DNA of 44,432 nt from Fundidesulfovibrio agrisoli (GTDB lineage Bacteria; Desulfobacterota; Desulfovibrionia; Desulfovibrionales; Desulfovibrionaceae): NCBI RefSeq assembly GCF_022808715.1, contig NZ_JAKZKX010000007.1:1-44432 (forward strand), in the 5' to 3' direction. The notes beneath the pieces are model-generated. The model ran no database searches. It was not told the origin of the DNA and saw nothing but the letters and a program-made list of their open reading frames with translations. Positions 15,877 to 26,084 of the stretch are shown piece after piece; within the stretch, counting starts at the first letter, position 1, and each line of letters starts with the position of its first letter. The position numbers and the translations under genes are program-made.

Positions 15877-16680
15877 ATGAAAGCCGCCATCTCCTTCATC
15901 GGCACCGGCAACATGGGCGCGGCCCTCATCAAGGGCCTCTCGGGCATGGACGGGGTGAGCCTGAACGGCTTCGACCTTGACCGCGAGAAGCTGAACGCCC
16001 TGTGCGCGCAGTGCGCCCTCCACGCCGTGGACACCATCCACGGGGCCGTGGAAAAGGCGGGGTACGTGCTCATGTGCGTGAAACCCCAGCAGATGAAGGC
16101 GGTGCTGGCTCAAGTCCATCCCGCGCTCACCGCGGACAAGTGCCTCATCTCCATCGCCGCCGGGATCACCCGCGAGCGGCTCTCGGAGTGGATCGGGCAC
16201 GCCTGCCCCGTGGTGCGCGTGATGCCCAACACCCCCGCCCTGGTGGGCGCGGGCGTTTCCGCCGTATGCCTGGACGACCCGCACCTCACCGCGGAGCAGA
16301 AGGAAGTCGTGCAGGCGATCTTCGCTTCCGTGGGCAGCGTCCACGTGCTGGAGGAGAAGCTGTTCGACTCCTTCACCGCCGTGGCGGGCAGCGGCCCGGC
16401 CTACGTCTACTACTTCATGGAGGCCCTCATCGAGGCGGCCCTGGCCGCCGGGCTGCCCAGGCCCATGGCCACGAGCATCGTGAGCGAGCTCATCGGCGGC
16501 TCGCTCAAGCTGGCCAACGAGAGCACGACCCACGTGAGCGTGCTGCGCGAGATGGTCACCTCCCCCGCGGGCACCACCATCGCCGCCCTGGCCCACATGG
16601 ACCGCATGGCCATGCGCGCCGCCATCATCGACGCCGTGGAGGCGGCGAGGCGGCGCGGGCAGGAGCTGGGAGCCTCCTAG
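15877..16680 (+). CDS. proC: Pyrroline-5-carboxylate reductase
   Basis: A 267-residue enzyme for the last step of proline synthesis, NAD(P)H reduction of pyrroline-5-carboxylate. The Rossmann motif is FIGTGNMGAALI (about 7-18). Further family motifs are CVKPQQM, VRVMPNTPALVGAG, and the C-terminal signature GSGPAYVYYFMEALIEAAL with LREMVTSPAGTT. Length is typical. It starts 4 bp after ndk and is followed by a strong terminator at 16704-16731, so the transcription unit ends here. Confidence 0.95.
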   Translation: MKAAISFIGTGNMGAALIKGLSGMDGVSLNGFDLDREKLNALCAQCALHAVDTIHGAVEKAGYVLMCVKPQQMKAVLAQVHPALTADKCLISIAAGITRERLSEWIGHACPVVRVMPNTPALVGAGVSAVCLDDPHLTAEQKEVVQAIFASVGSVHVLEEKLFDSFTAVAGSGPAYVYYFMEALIEAALAAGLPRPMATSIVSELIGGSLKLANESTTHVSVLREMVTSPAGTTIAALAHMDRMAMRAAIIDAVEAARRRGQELGAS

Positions 16681-16703
16681 AAGCATCACCACCGAAAACA
16701 AGG

Positions 16704-16731
16704 GGCCGGTCCATGAGGACCGGCCTTTTTT
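16704..16731 (+). terminator. Intrinsic terminator after proC
   Basis: GGCCGGTCC, loop ATGA, GGACCGGCC (16704-16725), then six T. It closes the ndk-proC unit. Confidence 0.9.
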
Positions 16732-16933
16732 GTCTGCAACGGCGCGCGAAATTTGTCGTGCTGCGCGCCGCGCGATATCCCGGCTGTTCCCGTCTTCTCG
16801 GCTCCCCGCGTCCGCCGCCCTCCCAGGCTTCCCCGGACGCCTTCCCCTGCGCGGGAAGTGGAGCCGATGCCGTCGTCGACCGGCCTGCGCGGCCGTTTTC
16901 GTAAAGGTTTCCGATGCGTGCCGGCACGCCGTT
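16732..16933. other. Gene-free GC-rich stretch
   Basis: No gene is supported. A GGCGCGC/GCGCGCC inverted repeat at about 16741-16770 could terminate minus-strand transcription coming from 17129-17656. Confidence 0.3.
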
Positions 16934-17119
16934 TCAGGCGGCCTGCGGCCCGTTGCCCCGGACCTGATAATATCCGGGCGCGGCCTTGGTCCGGCCCGCC
17001 GCCCCGAACGGGATCAACTTGCCGTCGCGTTTTCCCTGGCCGTCCGAATCGGGGCGCACGCGGGTCCCGAACGAACCGTTCACCACCACCGGACGCTTCT
17101 TGGCGGGCAATGCGCTCAT
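16934..17119 (-). CDS. Possible small protein, 61 residues
   Basis: A short minus-strand frame that begins only 9 bp after the stop of the module protein at 17129-17656. Its upstream GGCAGGG could act as a ribosome binding site. The sequence is basic in the first half (ALPAKKRPVVVNGSFGTRV) and contains a central DSDGQGKRDGKLIPFG stretch. There is no signal peptide, membrane segment or family I recognise. Tight spacing suggests co-transcription from the sigma-28-like promoter, but the frame could also be a chance opening in GC-rich DNA. Confidence 0.35.
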   Translation of the reverse strand: MSALPAKKRPVVVNGSFGTRVRPDSDGQGKRDGKLIPFGAAGRTKAAPGYYQVRGNGPQAA

Positions 17120-17128
17120 TGCCCTGCC

Positions 17129-17656
17129 TCAGGCGGCCGTGCTGGAGGTGGTGGTGTCGCTGGTGGAGCTCGTGGTGTCCACCCCGCTCAGGGCGCTGTC
17201 GATGATGGAATCCATCTTGGCCATGGGGTTGTCCGTGCGCATGGCCCCGGCGAACTTCATTGCCGCATTGCCGTTTCCGTTGCCGCCCGAGCTCATGGGC
17301 GCGCCCTTGGGCTTCTCCATCTTCAGGCTGTCCATGCTGCCGGTCTTGGCCGCTTCCGCGAACTTGGCCGACATCTCGCTGAGCATCTTGGAGTCGCGCG
17401 AGTCCGTGGAGTTCTTGGCCTCTTCCGCAAGCCCGTCGGAGATCTTCTGGGCCACTTCCTTGAATTTCTCGGGGTCGCTGCTGGCCAACTGGCTCAACTG
17501 GTTCATCCGCTTCGCGCCCTCGGAAATTTTTGCCTTGTCCTCCGTGGAGAGGCCCGCAACCTCAGCCGCCGAGGTGCTGTCCGAGGTCTGGGTGGTGCCA
17601 GTAATCAGGCTCGAGGCGTAGGTCTGGCTGGTTGAAAGGCTGCTGATTGTGCTCAT
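17129..17656 (-). CDS. Ser/Thr-rich module protein A (one module)
   Basis: A 175-residue protein of no family I recognise. The N terminus is Ser/Thr-rich (MSTISSLSTSQTYASS). A conserved module follows at about 50-113, with core motifs SSDPEKFKEVA (59-69), SEMSAKFAEAA and TGSMDSLK. After a Gly/Asn-rich linker a tail reads AKMDSIIDSALSG, then a Ser/Thr run. The same layout occurs twice in protein B at 18125-19069. It contains no Cys or Trp and no cleavable signal peptide. GGAGGT lies 9 nt before the ATG. A near-consensus sigma-28 promoter lies just upstream, suggesting flagellar-regulon expression. The function is unknown; a flagellar-exported or surface protein is an inference. Confidence 0.8.
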   Translation of the reverse strand: MSTISSLSTSQTYASSLITGTTQTSDSTSAAEVAGLSTEDKAKISEGAKRMNQLSQLASSDPEKFKEVAQKISDGLAEEAKNSTDSRDSKMLSEMSAKFAEAAKTGSMDSLKMEKPKGAPMSSGGNGNGNAAMKFAGAMRTDNPMAKMDSIIDSALSGVDTTSSTSDTTTSSTAA

Positions 17657-17692
17657 GACTGTTGTACCTCCGCAAACAAGATGTTTCCAGGG

Positions 17693-17719
17693 TTATCGGA
17701 TGCATTGCCGAAGAGTTTA
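17693..17719 (-). promoter_or_regulatory. Sigma-28 (FliA)-like promoter for protein A
   Basis: On the minus strand, TAAA (17719-17716), 15 bp, then TCCGATAA (17700-17693). The FliA consensus is TAAA-N15-GCCGATAA, so 11 of 12 positions match at exact spacing. The start would be near 17686, giving a leader of about 30 nt that includes the GGAGGT site. Such promoters serve late flagellar and motility genes. Confidence 0.65.
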
Positions 17720-18035
17720 GAACTGAAATGGACGATAAATTTTATTTTTTATTTCATTCCTGAGGTGTAACCTATTTCAAACCTGGATTTTACGTCCAAA
17801 TAAATCAAGCAACGACGCCATGTTCTGCGAAATCAGAAAAAGTTACACTCCGATGTGACATTTTTCCAATAATCTGCATTTTTTTGGGCGGAAAATTTTT
17901 CCTTCCGCATACTAACGAGTGTATTGCATTGAAATATATCGCTTTTATCCTCATTCAGATGGGAACCCAAATCCGGACCACTCCCCTTCAACGCGCAACA
18001 CCTCAACATTTTTGATATATTTAGGAGGATACGCA
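17720..18035. other. AT-rich divergent intergenic region
   Basis: This is the only long AT-rich stretch in an otherwise GC-rich window, with A/T runs near 17730-17760 and 17870-17910. No gene is credible here. It separates the two module proteins and probably binds regulators of both. AT richness could also mark recently acquired DNA or a site for a nucleoid protein. Confidence 0.5.
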
Positions 18036-18052
18036 CAGGCACTTTCGTTGCT
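18036..18052 (+). promoter_or_regulatory. Sigma-54-like promoter for protein B
   Basis: GGCAC (18038-18042), five bases, then TTGCT (18048-18052). The invariant GG and GC dinucleotides are exactly 10 bp apart, as required for the -24/-12 class. The -24 box lacks the preferred T (CAGGCAC rather than TTGGCAC). The start would be near 18063, about 62 nt before the ATG. Confidence 0.5.
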
Positions 18053-18124
18053 TTCGCACGGGCGGCAGGTTCAACAGACCGCGAAATTCCCATCGCGGGA
18101 AAGGTTACAACGGAGGTGAAAAAA

Positions 18125-19069
18125 ATGAGCATCAGTAGCATCAGTAGTCAGAACCAGCTCTACTCGATCTACGGCATCCAGGACATCGATCAGTCCCAGA
18201 GTTCCCAGACAACCACCAGCAGCTCCACAACCTCGGAGTCCGACAAGACGAGCTTCTCCAAGATGGGCCAGATGATGAGCCAGCTCTTCTCGCTGCAATC
18301 CTCCGACCCGGACAAGTTCAAGGAGGTCGCCCAGGAGATCGCGGACGACCTGGCCAAGCAGGCCTCCTCGGCCACCAGCACCGGCCAAGCCACCATGTAC
18401 AGCGACCTCTCGGCCAAGTTCTCGGAGGCGGCCCAAACCGGCAGCATGGACAGCCTCAAGCCCCAGGGGCCGCCGCCCCCGCCCCCCGGCGGCGCGTCGG
18501 CAGGTTCCGGCCAGGGAGGAGACATGCAGGCCGGGTTCGACGAGTTGAACAGCATCATCTCGCAGAGCCTCGGGAGCACGAGCAGCACGTCGAGCGACTC
18601 CACCAGCCAGACGAGCTCCGGCACGTCCGGCAAGGACCTTTTCGCCCAGCTTGCCAGCCTGCAGTCCAGCGACCCGGCCAAGTTCAAGGAGGTGGCGGCG
18701 TCCATCTCCCAGCAGTTGGCCGACCAGGCCAAGAGCGTCAGCGACCCGGGCGAGAGCGCCTTCCTGAGCGACATGTCCTCCAAGTTCGCGGAGGCCTCGA
18801 CAAGCGGCAGCATGGACAGCATCAAGCCCAAGGGCCGCCACGGGCATCACGGCTCGAGCCAGGGCGGCACCACGCAGAGCGGCACGGCGGATTCCAGCAC
18901 CACCACGTCCGCGAGCACGGACACCACCTCGACCAGCACGGCCGGTTCCACGGACAGCACGCAACTGGACGCCATCAAGATGTTCTTCCAGAACCTTGAG
19001 AGCACCATGAGCGCACGCCTGGGCCTATTGGGATCGACGACGGGCACCACCACCGCGGCGGCCGCCTAG
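18125..19069 (+). CDS. Ser/Thr-rich module protein B (two modules)
   Basis: A 314-residue paralogue of protein A. It has a Ser-rich N terminus (MSISSISSQNQLYSIYG), module 1 at about 48-113 and module 2 at about 170-236. Both contain SSDPxKFKEVA, a DLS/DMS-x-KF-x-EA segment and GSMDS-[LI]-KP. Module 1 ends in a polyproline stretch and a tail ELNSIISQSLGS, like the tail of protein A. The C terminus has LDAIKMFFQNLESTM. There is no Cys, Trp or cleavable signal. The ATG is set by a perfect GGAGGTGA site; the GTG inside that site is not used. No known family is recognised. Internal duplication and divergent regulation with protein A suggest a two-component structural or secreted pair. Confidence 0.85.
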   Translation: MSISSISSQNQLYSIYGIQDIDQSQSSQTTTSSSTTSESDKTSFSKMGQMMSQLFSLQSSDPDKFKEVAQEIADDLAKQASSATSTGQATMYSDLSAKFSEAAQTGSMDSLKPQGPPPPPPGGASAGSGQGGDMQAGFDELNSIISQSLGSTSSTSSDSTSQTSSGTSGKDLFAQLASLQSSDPAKFKEVAASISQQLADQAKSVSDPGESAFLSDMSSKFAEASTSGSMDSIKPKGRHGHHGSSQGGTTQSGTADSSTTTSASTDTTSTSTAGSTDSTQLDAIKMFFQNLESTMSARLGLLGSTTGTTTAAAA

Positions 19070-19461
19070 CTGGCCGCCAAGTTGGGCGTTCGCAAGGCCG
19101 GAAAGCCGGGCTGATCGCGCTTCGATCGTGCTTGGCGGGAAGGCTTCGCCACATGCGAACGTGTGGCTGCATCAAGATGGCGCGGCCTGCGCAGGATGCC
19201 CCACGGGCAGCAGACGGCCGCACATGCCCCTCCATCCGCCGCTCCAGGCGGAGGCTGCCGCCACGGACCGGCGGGGCGGGTGGAGACGGGCGGAAATTTA
19301 CAGGAGGCTGGCGGCGGCCCGCCTCCGCGACGATGTTCCCCGCGCTGCGAAACGCGGGGCCGGGCCCGGGCGTCCAGCTCCCTCTCCCTTCCCTGGACGC
19401 CCGCCTACAGGCCCGCGCCGGGGAGCGCCCTCCCGGGGCGCTCCCCAACCGGGCGCAAATC
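19070..19461. other. Gene-free region with tandem perfect hairpins
   Basis: No gene is supported between protein B and the convergent cold-shock gene. Three perfect stem-loops follow one another: CCCCGCG/CGCGGGG (19338-19359), CGGGCGTCCAG/CTGGACGCCCG (19367-19403) and GGGGAGCGCC/GGCGCTCCCC (19420-19446). A fourth is annotated as the cold-shock terminator. They could end transcription from both sides or form a structured 3' UTR. Confidence 0.5.
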
Positions 19462-19489
19462 AAAGCCCCGCGCGGGGGCGCGGGGCTTT
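19462..19489 (-). terminator. Probable terminator of the cold-shock gene
   Basis: Perfect 11-bp stem AAAGCCCCGCG/CGCGGGGCTTT with a 6-nt loop, 25 bp past the stop. On the minus strand it is followed by GATTTG, so the U-tract is weak. Confidence 0.55.
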
Positions 19490-19514
19490 AGAACTTACCG
19501 GTGGGAGAAATTTG

Positions 19515-20815: not shown

Positions 20816-23800
20816 CTAGAAAGTGTATCGGAGGCTCAGGCTCGCTGCCAGGTTCTGGTAGTCCCTGCGGAACAGATCCGCACCGACGCGCGCCGCCACC
20901 TGGAAGCGCCTGGTGCAGTCCACCGTCAGGCCCGCGCTCACGGCGGCCCAGTCCGTGGCCGGGGCAACGGTCTTGGTGGTGAAGCCGGAGCTGGCGATGC
21001 CCAGGTAGTTGGCGGTGATGTCCCGCCCGCCGCTCAACCACTCGTGGCCCCAGAGCACGCGGGCTTCGGGCGTGACGCGCAGGCCGCCGAGCTCCATGGA
21101 CTTGGCCACGCGCCCGCCCAGGCCGGTCTGCAGGGAGGCGTCCGTCCGGCGGCGGACGGAGAGGCCCAGAGGCCCGGCCCCGGCCTCGTCGAAGCCGTCC
21201 TGGCCGATGAGGGCGTAGCTCAGGGAGGCCACCGGCCCGAAGGACCAGCCCTCCGTGCGCCACTCGTAGCCGCCGCCAGCGTTGGCGAACAGGTTCCAGC
21301 CGTTCCAGGTGGATTTCTCCGTGAGCGAGCCCGTGGGCACCGAGATGGTGCGCCGGGCGTGGTAGGTGTCCAGGCCGCCGTGCAGGGTGGCCTCTCCGAA
21401 CCAGTTCTCGCCGTACCAGGTGGTGGAGAGGCCCAAGGTGGCGGTGTCCACGCGCCCGTCGCCGGAGGCCGCGCCGCCCAGGCTTAGGCCGCGCCCGGTG
21501 TAGCCGCCGAAGACCGCGCCCGCCAGGCTGTCGCTGACGCGGTAGTCGAAGCCGCCCAGCACGCCGCCGGAGAAGGAGCTGTAGGGCGTGCTCCCGTTGG
21601 TTGCGCCCTGGTACGCGGTCATGCCGAAAGGCTTGAGGAACACCCCGGCCCTGTCGGCCTCGCCCCCGGCGGCCACGGCCTGGGGCGCGCCGTTGCGCAG
21701 GGCGTCCACGTCCTGCACGGGTGCGGTCCCGGCGTCGAAGGGGCCGGAGAAGGCGGCCTGCTCCTGGCCGGAGCGCAGCCCGTGCAGCCGCCCCTGGACG
21801 GTGGAGGTCAACAGCCTGCCCGTGTCGAACCCGCTCTGGGTGAATGCGTCGTAGGGTTCGGGGTGCAGGTGGTCCAGGGAGGAGGAGATGCTGGCGGGCG
21901 AGGCCAGGTCCAGCCCGAGCAGGGCGTAGGCCATGATCCCGGTGGCGCTGTAGGCGGCCAGGTTCAGCCCGTTGCCCGCCGAGGCCGCCCGGGAGTTGCT
22001 GGCGAACATGGCGTAGGGGTTGCGGAACACCTCGGTGAGCACCCCGCTCGGCGTGCTCACGGGCTGGAAGCTCACAATGTAGGAGGGGAAGGTGCTGGAG
22101 GCCCCGGCGAAGGCCCCGGTGAGCCCGCCCGCGGCGCTGATGGTCTGCCAGGCCACGCCCGTGGGATAGAAGGCCAGGGGCGCGCTGACCGCGAGCTGGC
22201 CGCCGTTCAGGGTTGCGCGGCCCTGCACCTTGAGCAGGTCCGCCTGGCCGGAGGGGTCCACCTCGTCAATGAACACCGCCGTGGGGCCCTGCACGTAGTC
22301 GCCGGTGGCGTTGAGCGTGCCGATGGACCCGCCCGGCGAGACCATGCCGTTGTTGTTGAAATTGCCCAGTGTGCCGTACCCGCCCACCAGGGTGCCGGGG
22401 TTGGAGGTCAGGCTGCCTCCCAGCGATCCCCCGGCCGGGAGGAAGAGCGTGCCGCTGGCCAGCAGGGCCTGCCCGGAGTAGGCCGAGCCGTTGCCCGCCA
22501 TGGTGGTGACGCCTCCGCCGGTGAAGGTGAACGCGCCGTAGCCCGTGAAGGGGCCGCTCAGGGTCACGGGGTATCCGGCATTGTCCAGGGTGCCGCCGCC
22601 ACCGCTGACCTCCAGCCTCCTGGCCGTGGTCAGCGGGGCCGCCGCCTGTAGCCCGCCGCCGTTGAAGCTCACCGCGCCGGAGGGGTCGCCCAGGTTGGCG
22701 TCGGAGGCGATGTTGAGCATGCCCCCGCGCAGGATGGTGCCGCCCGAATAGGTGTTGGCCCCACGCAGGTAGAGCGTGCCCGCCCCGGCCTTGGCCACGG
22801 AGCCCGTGCCGGAGATGACGCCCCCGTAGCTCTTGCCCGTGCTGATGTCGTAGATGATGGCGCCGTTGTCGATGATGTCGCCCACGATGGTCACGTTCTC
22901 GTTCATGGAGAACACGGCGTTGTTGTTGACGGTCAGGTTGAAGAAGCTGCTGGCGTTCTCGGGGCTTGGGTTGAGCACCCAGTTGGCGGCCGCTCCGGAG
23001 TTGCCCACCACGAGGTTGGTCACGCCCAGGAACTGCACGCCCGTGGAGCCCTGTCCGTAGAGGTTCACCAGGTTGTTGCCGCTGCCCAGGTCCACCTTGC
23101 CCACGAGGTTGGCCCCGGTGTCCAGGGTCACAACGTTGTTGGCCGTCCCCCCGATCCAGCCGCCCGCGCCGTCGGGCCGCCCGGCCCGGATGGCGTAGCC
23201 CGCCCCGCCGCCGGAGTTGTCCACCCCGCTCACGGTGCCCGTGACGTAAACATACATGGCCTCGGAGGAGCCGATGGCCACGGCCAGGCCGTTGGCGCTG
23301 GCCCACACGCCCCCTGAGACGTACAGGGGCGTGCCCCCGCCGCCGTTCAAGCTGCCGCCGCTGAATATGCCCACGGCGGTGTGCCCCGCCGCCTCGGCCA
23401 CGACCCTGCCCGCCATGCCGCCGGAAACGGTCAGCCCCCCGGCCCCGTACATGCCGTAGGCGATGTTTCCGCCCGACTGGGCGTGGACGATGCCCGTGCT
23501 GGCCACGGAGCCGATGTTCACGGCGTCGCCAGTGGCCGCGAGGCCATAGGCCCCGGAACCGGTGGTGGTCCGCGCCGTGACCGTGCCGCTGAGCGACCCC
23601 AGGATCTGCAGGTCGTCGGCGGCGCGCATGCCGTAGGCGGACCCGCTGGCGGAAGTTGCCGTGATCGACCCGGCCATGTTCCCGGTGACCCGCAGGTTGT
23701 CGCCGGTGGAGGTCATGCCCGTCGCGGTGCCGGCCCCGGCCTGGGCGGTGATGGCGGTGTTGGCGGAGACGGTGCTGACCACCAGTTCTGTGCCGCCCTG

Positions 23801-24304
23801 GGCGCCTACGCCTGTGCTGTCGCCGGCTCCAGAGGCGCTCGAGGAGAAGTTTATGGCGTTCGCCCCCCCGAAGGAGAGGCGCTCGTTCATGGTGACAGCG
23901 GCCGTGGCGCCCGGCGGGGATACGATGGTCACAGCGCCCCCGGAGTTGTTCGAGAAGGTCACGGGGCTGTTGAGAGTGGGCAGGGCCGAGATCAGGGTGA
24001 TCGTGGAGCCGGGGATGCTGAACTGGATCGTGTTGGACCCGGCCCCGGCCGCGTTGAGGTCCAGCATGGCCTGGCGCAGGGAGCCCGGGCCGGAATCGTT
24101 GCTGTTGGTCACGGTGAAGGTGCCCGCGAGGCACAGGGCCGGACTCAGGGTCAGGGCCAGCAGCAGCGCGAGCAAACCCGGCAGCCGAAGCTGGCGGCCC
24201 GCATTTGCTGCCCGGAGGGCGGCGGAGAGGGGCTTGGGCTGCGTCTCCGTAACGCGAATGCTGTCCGGATCGTGAGAGCGGCGAGCGGCGGGCAGGTACG
24301 ACAT
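20816..24304 (-). CDS. Autotransporter (type Va) with beta-barrel translocator
   Basis: About 1162 residues. An unusually long N-terminal extension (about 55 residues with basic stretches) ends in the hydrophobic segment [21 protein letters not shown], a likely Sec signal. The passenger (about 65-850) is rich in Gly, Ser, Thr and Asn, begins [18 protein letters not shown] and contains a passenger repeat of the kind [17 protein letters not shown], predicting a beta-helix. The last 270 residues form the barrel, ending in the expected aromatic LSLRYTF. The passenger function is unknown; adhesion is the usual guess. The start at 24304 has GGAG upstream; an ATG 12 bp earlier is also possible. Confidence 0.88.
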
Positions 24305-24392
24305 GCGATACTCCATGAACACATTGGGTTACGAAGCATATGCAGATTGTTCCTGAAAAGGACAAGATATTTCTTAAAACCTTACAAGACGG

Positions 24393-24454: not shown

Positions 24455-26026
24455 TCAGCTCGCCAGCGAGCGGATGGCGCTCTCCAACTGGCCCGCGAGG
24501 CGCGCCAGGGCGTCCACGCCGTTGGAGGCCCCGCCCATCTCCTGGGAGGTCTCCTGGCTGACGCGGCGCACGTCGTCCACGGCGCGGGCGATCTCGTCGC
24601 TGGCGGCGGACTGCTGCTCCGCGGCGGCGGCGATGCCCCGCACCTGGTCGGAAGTGGCCTCGGCCAGGTCCACGATGCCCTTGAGGGCCTCGCCGGACTC
24701 GCGGGCCAGGCGGGTGGCGCGCTGCACGGCCTCGGCGGCCTGGTCGGTACCGGCGATGCTCTGGCCCACGCCGGTGCGGATGGCGCCGGTGACCTCGCCC
24801 ACCTCGTGGGTGGCGGTCATGGTCTTCTCGGCCAGCTTGCGCACCTCGTCGGCCACCACGGCGAAGCCTCGCCCGGCGTCACCGGCGCGGGCTGCTTCGA
24901 TGGCGGCGTTCAGGGCCAGCAGGTTGGTCTGGTCCGCGATGTCTGAGATCACGCCCATGATGCGTCCGATGGCCTCGGCGCGCTCGGAGAGGCCGTCCAT
25001 GCTGCGCTTGAGGGTGGAGGTCAGCTCGTCCACCTGGAGGATGGCCTCCACGGCCTTGCCCACCACCTGCTCGCCTTCGCGGGCCTTGGCCTGGGCCTCG
25101 CCCGCGCTCTGGGCGGCGGTGCCCGCGTTGCGCGCGACTTCCAGCACGGTGGCGTTCATCTCCTCCATGGAGGCGGCGGTCTCCTCGGCGCGCTCGCTCT
25201 GCACGCGCGCGCCCCGGCTGGCGGCGTCCACCTGGGAGGTCAGGGCCCGGCAGGTGGAGGCCAGCTCCCGCGAGATGGCCTCCACCACGGACACGGTCTC
25301 CATGATGGCCTGACTCTGGCGGGTGATGTGGTCTTCCTTGGTCCTGATCTCGGTGTAGTCCAGGTACATGCACAGCCCGCCGCTGACCTTGCCGTCCAGG
25401 TCGTGCAGGGGGGAGAGGGCCGCCTGGATGAAGCGGGTGTTGCCCTTGAGGTTCTTGAACTCCACGTCGCGCACGACGCCCTGGTTGTTCTCCATGATGT
25501 CCACGATCAGGGCCTTTCGGGTCTTGTCGCCGTAGAAGAACTCCGAGAAGAACATGCCCGGGTAGTCGGAGGGCTTGCCGCCGCGCTCCAGCATCTCCAG
25601 GGCGCGGTCGTTGCACATCACCAGGTTTCCCTTGATGTCCACCAGGGCGTAGGGCACCAGCACCGCCTCGGTGAAGCCGCGCCAGTTGCCCAGGGTCAGC
25701 TTGAGCTGCCCGATGAGGCTGTCCAGGGAGGACTCCAGGGCGTCCAGCTCGGCCACGCTGGGGGCCGGGAGCCTGGCCCCGAAATCCCCGCCCGCGACCT
25801 TGGCCATGGCCTGGTTGATCTCGCTCAGGTTGTCGCGGACGCCGCCGAAAAGCAGCCACCCGAAGCCGAGCCCGGCCAGCACCCCGGCGGCGAGGCCGAC
25901 AAGCTGGGCCGCGCCGGAGGAGAGCCCCAAGGGGCCGGAGGCCAGGACGAAGGCCGCGTACAGTACAAGGGGGGAAAGGACGCCGAGCAGGACGGCCCGG
26001 AACCTGATGGATGCGGAGTGGAGCAT
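24455..26026 (-). CDS. Methyl-accepting chemotaxis protein with PAS domain
   Basis: A 523-residue chemoreceptor. Two closely spaced N-terminal transmembrane helices (about 10-65) leave almost no periplasmic loop. A HAMP-like segment, a PAS domain (about 130-245, with [20 protein letters not shown]) and the cytoplasmic signalling coiled coil follow. The CheA/CheW hairpin tip, [20 protein letters not shown], is intact. The input is thus probably cytoplasmic, for example redox state or a small ligand in the PAS pocket. The ATG at 26026 has GGAGGT upstream; a longer frame is disfavoured. Confidence 0.92.
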
Positions 26027-26060
26027 GACTGACCTCCAAAATGCTTGAGAGGAACGCGGG

Positions 26061-26084
26061 GACATCCGATCCCTGCCGGATGTC
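26061..26084. promoter_or_regulatory. Operator-like inverted repeat upstream of the chemoreceptor
   Basis: GACATCCG (26061-26068) and CGGATGTC (26077-26084) are perfect complements separated by 8 bp, 35 bp before the ATG. It may be a regulator site or a leader hairpin. Confidence 0.35.

Follow-up and report, generated by a model that had tools for sequence, protein, structure and literature searches.

In E. coli, the flxA gene is FliA-dependent and is described as playing no evident part in the making of flagella or in motility (PMC4183435). The FliA sites of E. coli, that of flxA included, have the form TAAA-N15-GCCGATAA that is considered here, and many of those listed there change little in a fliA deletion (PMC4183435), so that a site alone does not prove regulation. 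In Campylobacter, the Feds are the products of sigma-28 genes outside flagellar assembly (PMC6196472).

Here we analyze a divergent gene pair encoding two serine-rich proteins, A and B, in the window, by which we mean the whole stretch of 44,432 nucleotides of Fundidesulfovibrio agrisoli DNA under study. The smaller gene, that of A, has a putative promoter of the type used late in flagellum building, and this suggests a so far unrecognised family, defined by a small module, that is linked to the flagellum and may be exported. The family resembles FlxA in two relatives from the genus g29, where a coiled coil after the module gives weak matches to the FlxA-like family PF14282 (E 4.4e-5 and 5.8e-5, under the cut-off), but A and B have no PF14282 match and the module itself lies outside PF14282. 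The Feds differ in that they are known from host colonisation, whereas the module family was found here mostly in Desulfovibrionaceae, and we claim no sequence relation between the two. FlgM (PF04316) is a small late flagellar export substrate with which the family shares only a word resembling D-x-V-S-L-S, as judged by eye, and a relation to FlgM was rejected on a profile comparison that gives it a probability of 0.2% (7 FlgM sequences, from 30 FlgM loci).

The Gene Pair and Its Repeat Module

The original prediction of a divergent pair sharing a repeat module is confirmed, with one copy in A and two in B (Table 1). The start of B is taken as the ATG at 18125 instead of the GTG at 18116 given in a mechanical list of open reading frames. 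The region between the genes had been called AT-rich, and its 468 bases do have a GC content of 42% vs 62–73% across the window. Ser and Thr together account for 30% of A and 34% of B, and a composition count bears out the earlier statement that both lack Cys and Trp, while the statement that neither has a cleavable signal agrees with our own judgement, made by eye only, that no signal peptide is seen in A or B.

The three modules are 53–57% identical to each other (A/B1 39/68, A/B2 37/66, B1/B2 35/66). When the genome is searched with A as the query, B is found at E 4.6e-22 and 1.5e-10, so the similarity between A and B cannot be put down to chance. The search also gives a fourth, weaker copy of the module on contig C21 (E 3.4e-6). 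In a comparison with G009, the nearest sampled relative, dN/dS is 0.11 in the module of A and 0.41 outside it, and 0.25 and 0.45, respectively, in B. This pattern indicates that the genes are real and that the module is their constrained part, as had been predicted from its conservation between drifting linkers, and together with the E value of 4.6e-22 it rules out chance similarity of the two proteins. The C-terminal helix of A is unconstrained in the same pair of genomes (dN/dS 0.79 over 19 codons). Most members of the family share a plan in which a Ser-rich start and a word resembling D-x-x-x-I/L-S precede the module and a helix-like end follows it, the linker after the module often being rich in Pro or His. 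Neither Cys nor Trp is present in 32 of 39 family proteins and 20 of 24 distant ones, vs 7 of 29 background ORFs of 120–350 aa.

The AlphaFold models, based on an 11-row alignment for A and a shallow 4-row alignment for B, predict that the module consists of three helices between low-confidence Ser/Thr-rich arms. In the model of A, the module helices span residues 38–60, 62–82, and 86–105 and are followed by a C-terminal helix (144–159), with low-confidence ends; the pLDDT block means are 83–89 for residues 51–110 and the mean for the whole protein is 62. The model of B (mean pLDDT 54) contains the three-helix module twice, each time followed by a low-confidence helix. Two short tails that had been described as recurring after the module, DSIIDSAL in A and NSIISQSL in B, are both present and both fall inside modelled helices, the one in B at low confidence. 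Structure prediction, which had been proposed as a check, thus gives three-helix models and no confident fold match in the PDB, none being found at E ≤0.001 among the matches listed (for one search the best 50 of 76). There is no PDB sequence match for B up to E 1, and the module profile has six matches to PDB sequences, mostly designed helical proteins, at E 0.05–0.9, none being better than 0.05.

Table 1. Positions of the genes, modules, modelled helices and upstream elements at the A/B locus (window coordinates).
Feature	Position	Strand	Remarks
Gene of protein A	17129..17656	-	175 aa, one module; orthologues in 6 other sampled genomes of the same genus
Gene of protein B	18125..19069	+	314 aa, two modules; ATG start at 18125
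Module in A (residues 45-112)	17321..17524	-	Profile match, 68 residues; three modelled helices
First module of B (residues 45-112)	18257..18460	+	Profile match, 68 residues; three modelled helices
Second module of B (residues 169-234)	18629..18826	+	Profile match, 66 residues; three modelled helices
C-terminal helix of A (residues 144-159), modelled	17180..17227	-	Holds DSIIDSAL; seen again in relatives; pLDDT block means 65-71
Helix after first module of B (residues 134-149), modelled	18524..18571	+	Holds NSIISQSL; low confidence, pLDDT <50
C-terminal helix of B (residues 279-303), modelled	18959..19033	+	Low confidence, pLDDT <50
Putative sigma-28 (FliA)-type promoter of A, TAAA-N15-TCCGATAA	17693..17719	-	1 mismatch, spacer 15, 36 nt before start
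Motif TGTAAC[CT]TT, copy 1	17839..17847	-	Repeated word upstream of module genes
Motif TGTAAC[CT]TT, copy 2, just before B start	18101..18109	-	11-base form RAAAGGTTACA: one of two in the genome
Palindrome-like GGAAAATTTTTCC	17890..17902	.	By pattern, no chance test; similar words upstream of some relatives

Comparison With Known Families

Neither A nor B reaches any cut-off in Pfam or NCBIfam. Among eight relatives that were scanned whole, two narrowly pass Pfam cut-offs, L026 for PF00639 (26 vs 21.7 bits) and the B protein of L008 for PF11333 (24.4 vs 22.7 bits, the match covering 34 of 81 positions), so that the absence of a known family is not absolute for the family as a whole. What had been predicted in this respect holds for the proteins of the window and not for these two relatives, and it is with this exception that the label unrecognised stands for the A/B family in the libraries searched. 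The Pfam terminal domains of the flagellar axial proteins (flagellin, FlgK, FlgL, and FliD) are not matched in A or B. A structured RNA was rejected since Rfam has no match at the gathering score in 16600–19500, and a mobile origin was rejected as well, with no relative in viral contigs and no relative of the L051 protein, which was the plasmid query in place of A and B, in plasmids. A literature search gave no paper that we recognised as treating the module family, although an unnamed family could escape such a search.

Distribution of the Module

Among 199 Desulfovibrionaceae genomes sampled, 36 carry the module at E ≤0.001, comprising all seven of the window's genus, 14 of g25, nine of g29, and six others, one of which (G107) has a weak match interrupted by stops. 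Genus g25 is probably Solidesulfovibrio, as g25 proteins are identical to Solidesulfovibrio ones (L041–L043, L048, and L049). In a sample of the phylum the module is seen only in Desulfovibrionaceae (4/395). A scan of public genomes gave 12 loci, including a Myxococcales MAG and Limnoglobus roseus; L052, which by eye lies in an ORF of another kind, was taken for a chance match and rejected as a family member. A widened profile detects the module in 10 of the 297 genomes from the class of Limnoglobus and in 8 of 282 from the phylum of the MAG, both starting genomes included, and from the taxonomy of the records we take these groups to be Planctomycetia and Myxococcota.

The divergent A/B pair is present in all seven sampled genomes of the window's genus. 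Elsewhere, a single-module gene stands alone, the genes are in tandem, or they lie on separate contigs, so the homologues in the same divergent layout for which the original prediction had looked do exist but are seen only within the genus. Locus L045 contains three module genes on one strand. One of the three (L045:9463–9843), immediately upstream of a gene that has a single module, encodes a short paralogue whose N terminus resembles a signal peptide, which suggests that the module may serve outside the cytoplasm. In genome G005 the module genes are spread over different contigs; two more of them lie close together at L129:3410–5380, the longer one being up to 371 aa.

A Putative Sigma-28-Type Promoter Upstream of Many Single-Module Genes

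The sigma-28 motif was first noticed in the upstream sequences, and it was scored in 44 module genes with spacers of 14–16 allowed. Sites matching TAAA-N15-GCCGATAA with no more than two mismatches precede 26 of the 44 (13 with no mismatch, nine with one, and four with two), all with a spacer of 15, and among 2640 shuffles this level is reached by 67 (eight with one mismatch and 59 with two). The distance to the start is 25–42 nt in 25 of the 26 genes; for L016 the scored site lies far from the start, and a two-mismatch site in the usual position was identified by eye. The 26 sites are those of the A genes in all seven genomes of the window's genus, of 14 out of 14 genes in g25, of one gene in g15, and of four in g29, where four of the nine module-bearing genomes were scored. 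The sites of L008, L012, L016, and L022 have two mismatches, which 2–7% of shuffles of the same sequence also reach. The 18 without a site are nine two-module genes, four rows from L025 and L045 that represent two genes seen twice, and L027, L031, L004, L050, and L051, and the start of the two-module gene of L012 is probably misplaced. At B, the best site has five mismatches. No sigma-28 promoter was found at the single-module genes of L025, L027, and L031 or at L004, a paralogue in the window's genome, and in the 24 relatives from Planctomycetia and Myxococcota no site has two mismatches or fewer, the best having three.

In 25 loci (418 kb, both strands), which were picked for holding module genes and in which some regions are present twice, 12 sites have at most one mismatch, and all are directly before module genes, vs one site for a scrambled motif; one of the 12, before a module gene of G005 (L128), is additional to the sites scored above. 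Among 287 control ORFs in the same loci, called mechanically with the first ATG as the start, none has a site with two mismatches or fewer. The putative sigma-28 promoter is seen only at single-module genes, in genera g1, g15, g25, and g29 and in G005, and the membership of A in the sigma-28 regulon is well supported as a prediction from these data. Across the window's genome, the strict pattern occurs four times, always with a spacer of 15, vs five times for a reversed control. One strict site is just before a FlgM-family match and another is before a gene taken, by its look alone, for flgO. A strict sigma-28-type site is also present at L053 (C10:23430–23455, minus strand), 53 nt before a 63-aa ORF starting MSNKLGFETPVQQG. 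Three tandem flagellin genes have sites with one to two mismatches (spacers 15, 15, and 16), and the other four of the seven flagellin-domain genes scored have nothing better than four mismatches, an eighth such gene (L064) being outside this scoring.

Other Upstream Elements

The word TGTAAC[CT]TT, chosen after reading these upstream regions, has 16 copies in 259,757 bases (13 loci), every one upstream of module genes. Six divergent regions have two to three copies each, vs a shuffle expectation of 0.007–0.015, and elsewhere there are two copies in L046, which probably is of the same species as G118 given that their proteins are identical, and one in L132. This suggests that A and B may share a regulator acting through TGTAAC[CT]TT. 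The longer RAAAGGTTACA was rejected as a genome-wide regulon word, with two sites in the window's genome vs one for the control. In g29, an ECF-type sequence, TGTAAC-N17-CGTC, lies upstream of the sigma-28 site in all four genes examined (L028, L029, L030, and L033), making dual control of these genes by ECF-like and sigma-28 factors possible; the spacing is different in the window's genus. Three module genes of the Limnoglobus class (L070, L079, and L081) share GCAACTTT-N-CGATA some 70 nt ahead of their starts; the word was picked once these sequences had been read, and these are the sole three sites in the 142 kb of strand searched.

Genomic Neighborhood and Flagellar Genes

In G106, a genome of the same genus, the pair lies between two groups of genes. 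The first consists of flgK, a Flagellin_N/C-domain gene taken by its position for flgL, fliD, and a sigma-70-family gene whose size is ECF-like; the second, on the opposite flank, consists of cheA, cheW, and mcp. A flagellin gene is located 5–7 kb from the module genes in L124, L125, and L126 (Pfam-tested in L124 only), which is weak evidence because the window's genome has eight Flagellin_N matches. In the window itself, a proC-like gene (by eye) and ndk adjoin A, cbiB and an autotransporter adjoin B, and an MCP gene is found at 24455–26065. The autotransporter (20816–24316, 1166 aa) has a beta-domain and a passenger-associated repeat. The neighbors of the module genes in g25 are, by eye, not flagellar. 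The flagellar linkage is therefore strong in one genome and weak elsewhere, and of the consistent neighbors envisaged with the original prediction, A and B are such for each other throughout the genus, whereas flagellar ones are strong only in G106.

The window's genome has a single FlhA/SctV-family match, so that no second type III system is visible, which would leave the flagellum as the sole route of this type. The co-occurrence of FlhA with the module was discarded as evidence. FlhA is present in 190 of the 199 family genomes and in 35 of the 36 module carriers, and being nearly universal it proves nothing in this regard; among the distant genomes, all 18 carriers have a match and so do 8 of the 10 non-carriers, several of the matches being partial.

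Proposed Role of A and B

We put forward a mechanism in which A is a late flagellar gene product and an accessory substrate of the export apparatus, with B as its separately expressed partner or counterpart, and we give this about an even chance of being correct. The A gene would be transcribed by RNA polymerase carrying sigma-28 (FliA), and this would place its expression after hook completion and the exit of FlgM. The timing would match that of flagellin; sigma-28-dependent class III genes such as fliC are expressed after FlgM secretion (PMC7911332). The A protein is small and free of Cys and Trp; its Ser/Thr-rich N terminus is probably disordered, and the model shows a compact module of three helices and a further helix at the C terminus. 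It would most likely pass through the flagellar export apparatus as an accessory substrate with no structural role. Export is compatible with the composition, the low-confidence start, and the C-terminal helix of A, although these features are no proof of it, and no export signal was identified in A or B. After export, A would either be set free or stay attached to the cell surface or the filament, and there its module would bind a partner. B, with no sigma-28 promoter, would follow another schedule and may bind A or the target of A. The module, the putative promoter, the conservation, the genus-wide pairing, and the flagellar linkage in one relative are read from the DNA, and from there we infer export, surface location, and A-B interaction.

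The sigma-28 promoter applies equally to a different role for A, that of a cytoplasmic helper with a module that binds some flagellar protein. It could be an export chaperone, an adaptor, or a regulator of late steps in flagellar assembly or chemotaxis, and B would be a form made under other control. The helical module of the model and the lack of both a visible signal peptide and an identified export signal are in agreement with such a helper, but the joint absence of Cys and Trp is less common in background ORFs of similar size, a signal-peptide-like form exists in L045, and there is no profile similarity to FlgM, and we regard a helper as possible but rather doubtful. The L045 form is also in line with a family of surface or matrix proteins, for adhesion or biofilm, that use another export route and are merely coupled to motility by sigma-28 in some genera. 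Members in other genera and phyla that have no sigma-28 promoters, the richness of many members in Ser and Thr together with linkers rich in His or Pro, and the upstream motif common to A and B all favor this proposal, which we nevertheless consider unlikely, as no adhesin or sorting family was matched at cut-off in Pfam or NCBIfam.

The weak database matches raise the question of whether the module has diverged from parvulin (a PpiC-type peptidyl-prolyl isomerase, PF00639) or from DUF3135 (PF11333). At E values up to 1, PF00639 matches 16 and PF11333 matches 17 of 27 modules, and L026 and the B protein of L008 exceed the cut-offs. However, the module of A scores 18.4 bits against the parvulin cut-off of 21.7, both A and B are under the cut-off for DUF3135, and the one relative that passes it does so over less than half of the profile. 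The parvulin fold contains beta-sheet, whereas the models of A and B are all helix with no strands, and no parvulin is among the PDB sequence or fold matches listed (for one search the best 50 of 76). We therefore view descent from either domain as highly improbable.

Implications

In a broader and more speculative form of the flagellar export proposal, which we offer as a tentative possibility only, the module would mark a so far unrecognised group of small secreted proteins that occurs in three bacterial phyla. In Desulfovibrionaceae this group would have been recruited to the sigma-28 regulon and would leave the cell via the flagellum, with the divergent B as a two-module partner under separate control. 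Hypothetical Ser/Thr-rich proteins usually come with no lead as to what they do, and here the promoter, the neighborhood, and the phylogeny supply one, namely that of a putative late flagellar regulon member outside the known flagellar families. If A is exported, these bacteria would join those that secrete proteins through the flagellum, and the module would provide a new small domain to study.
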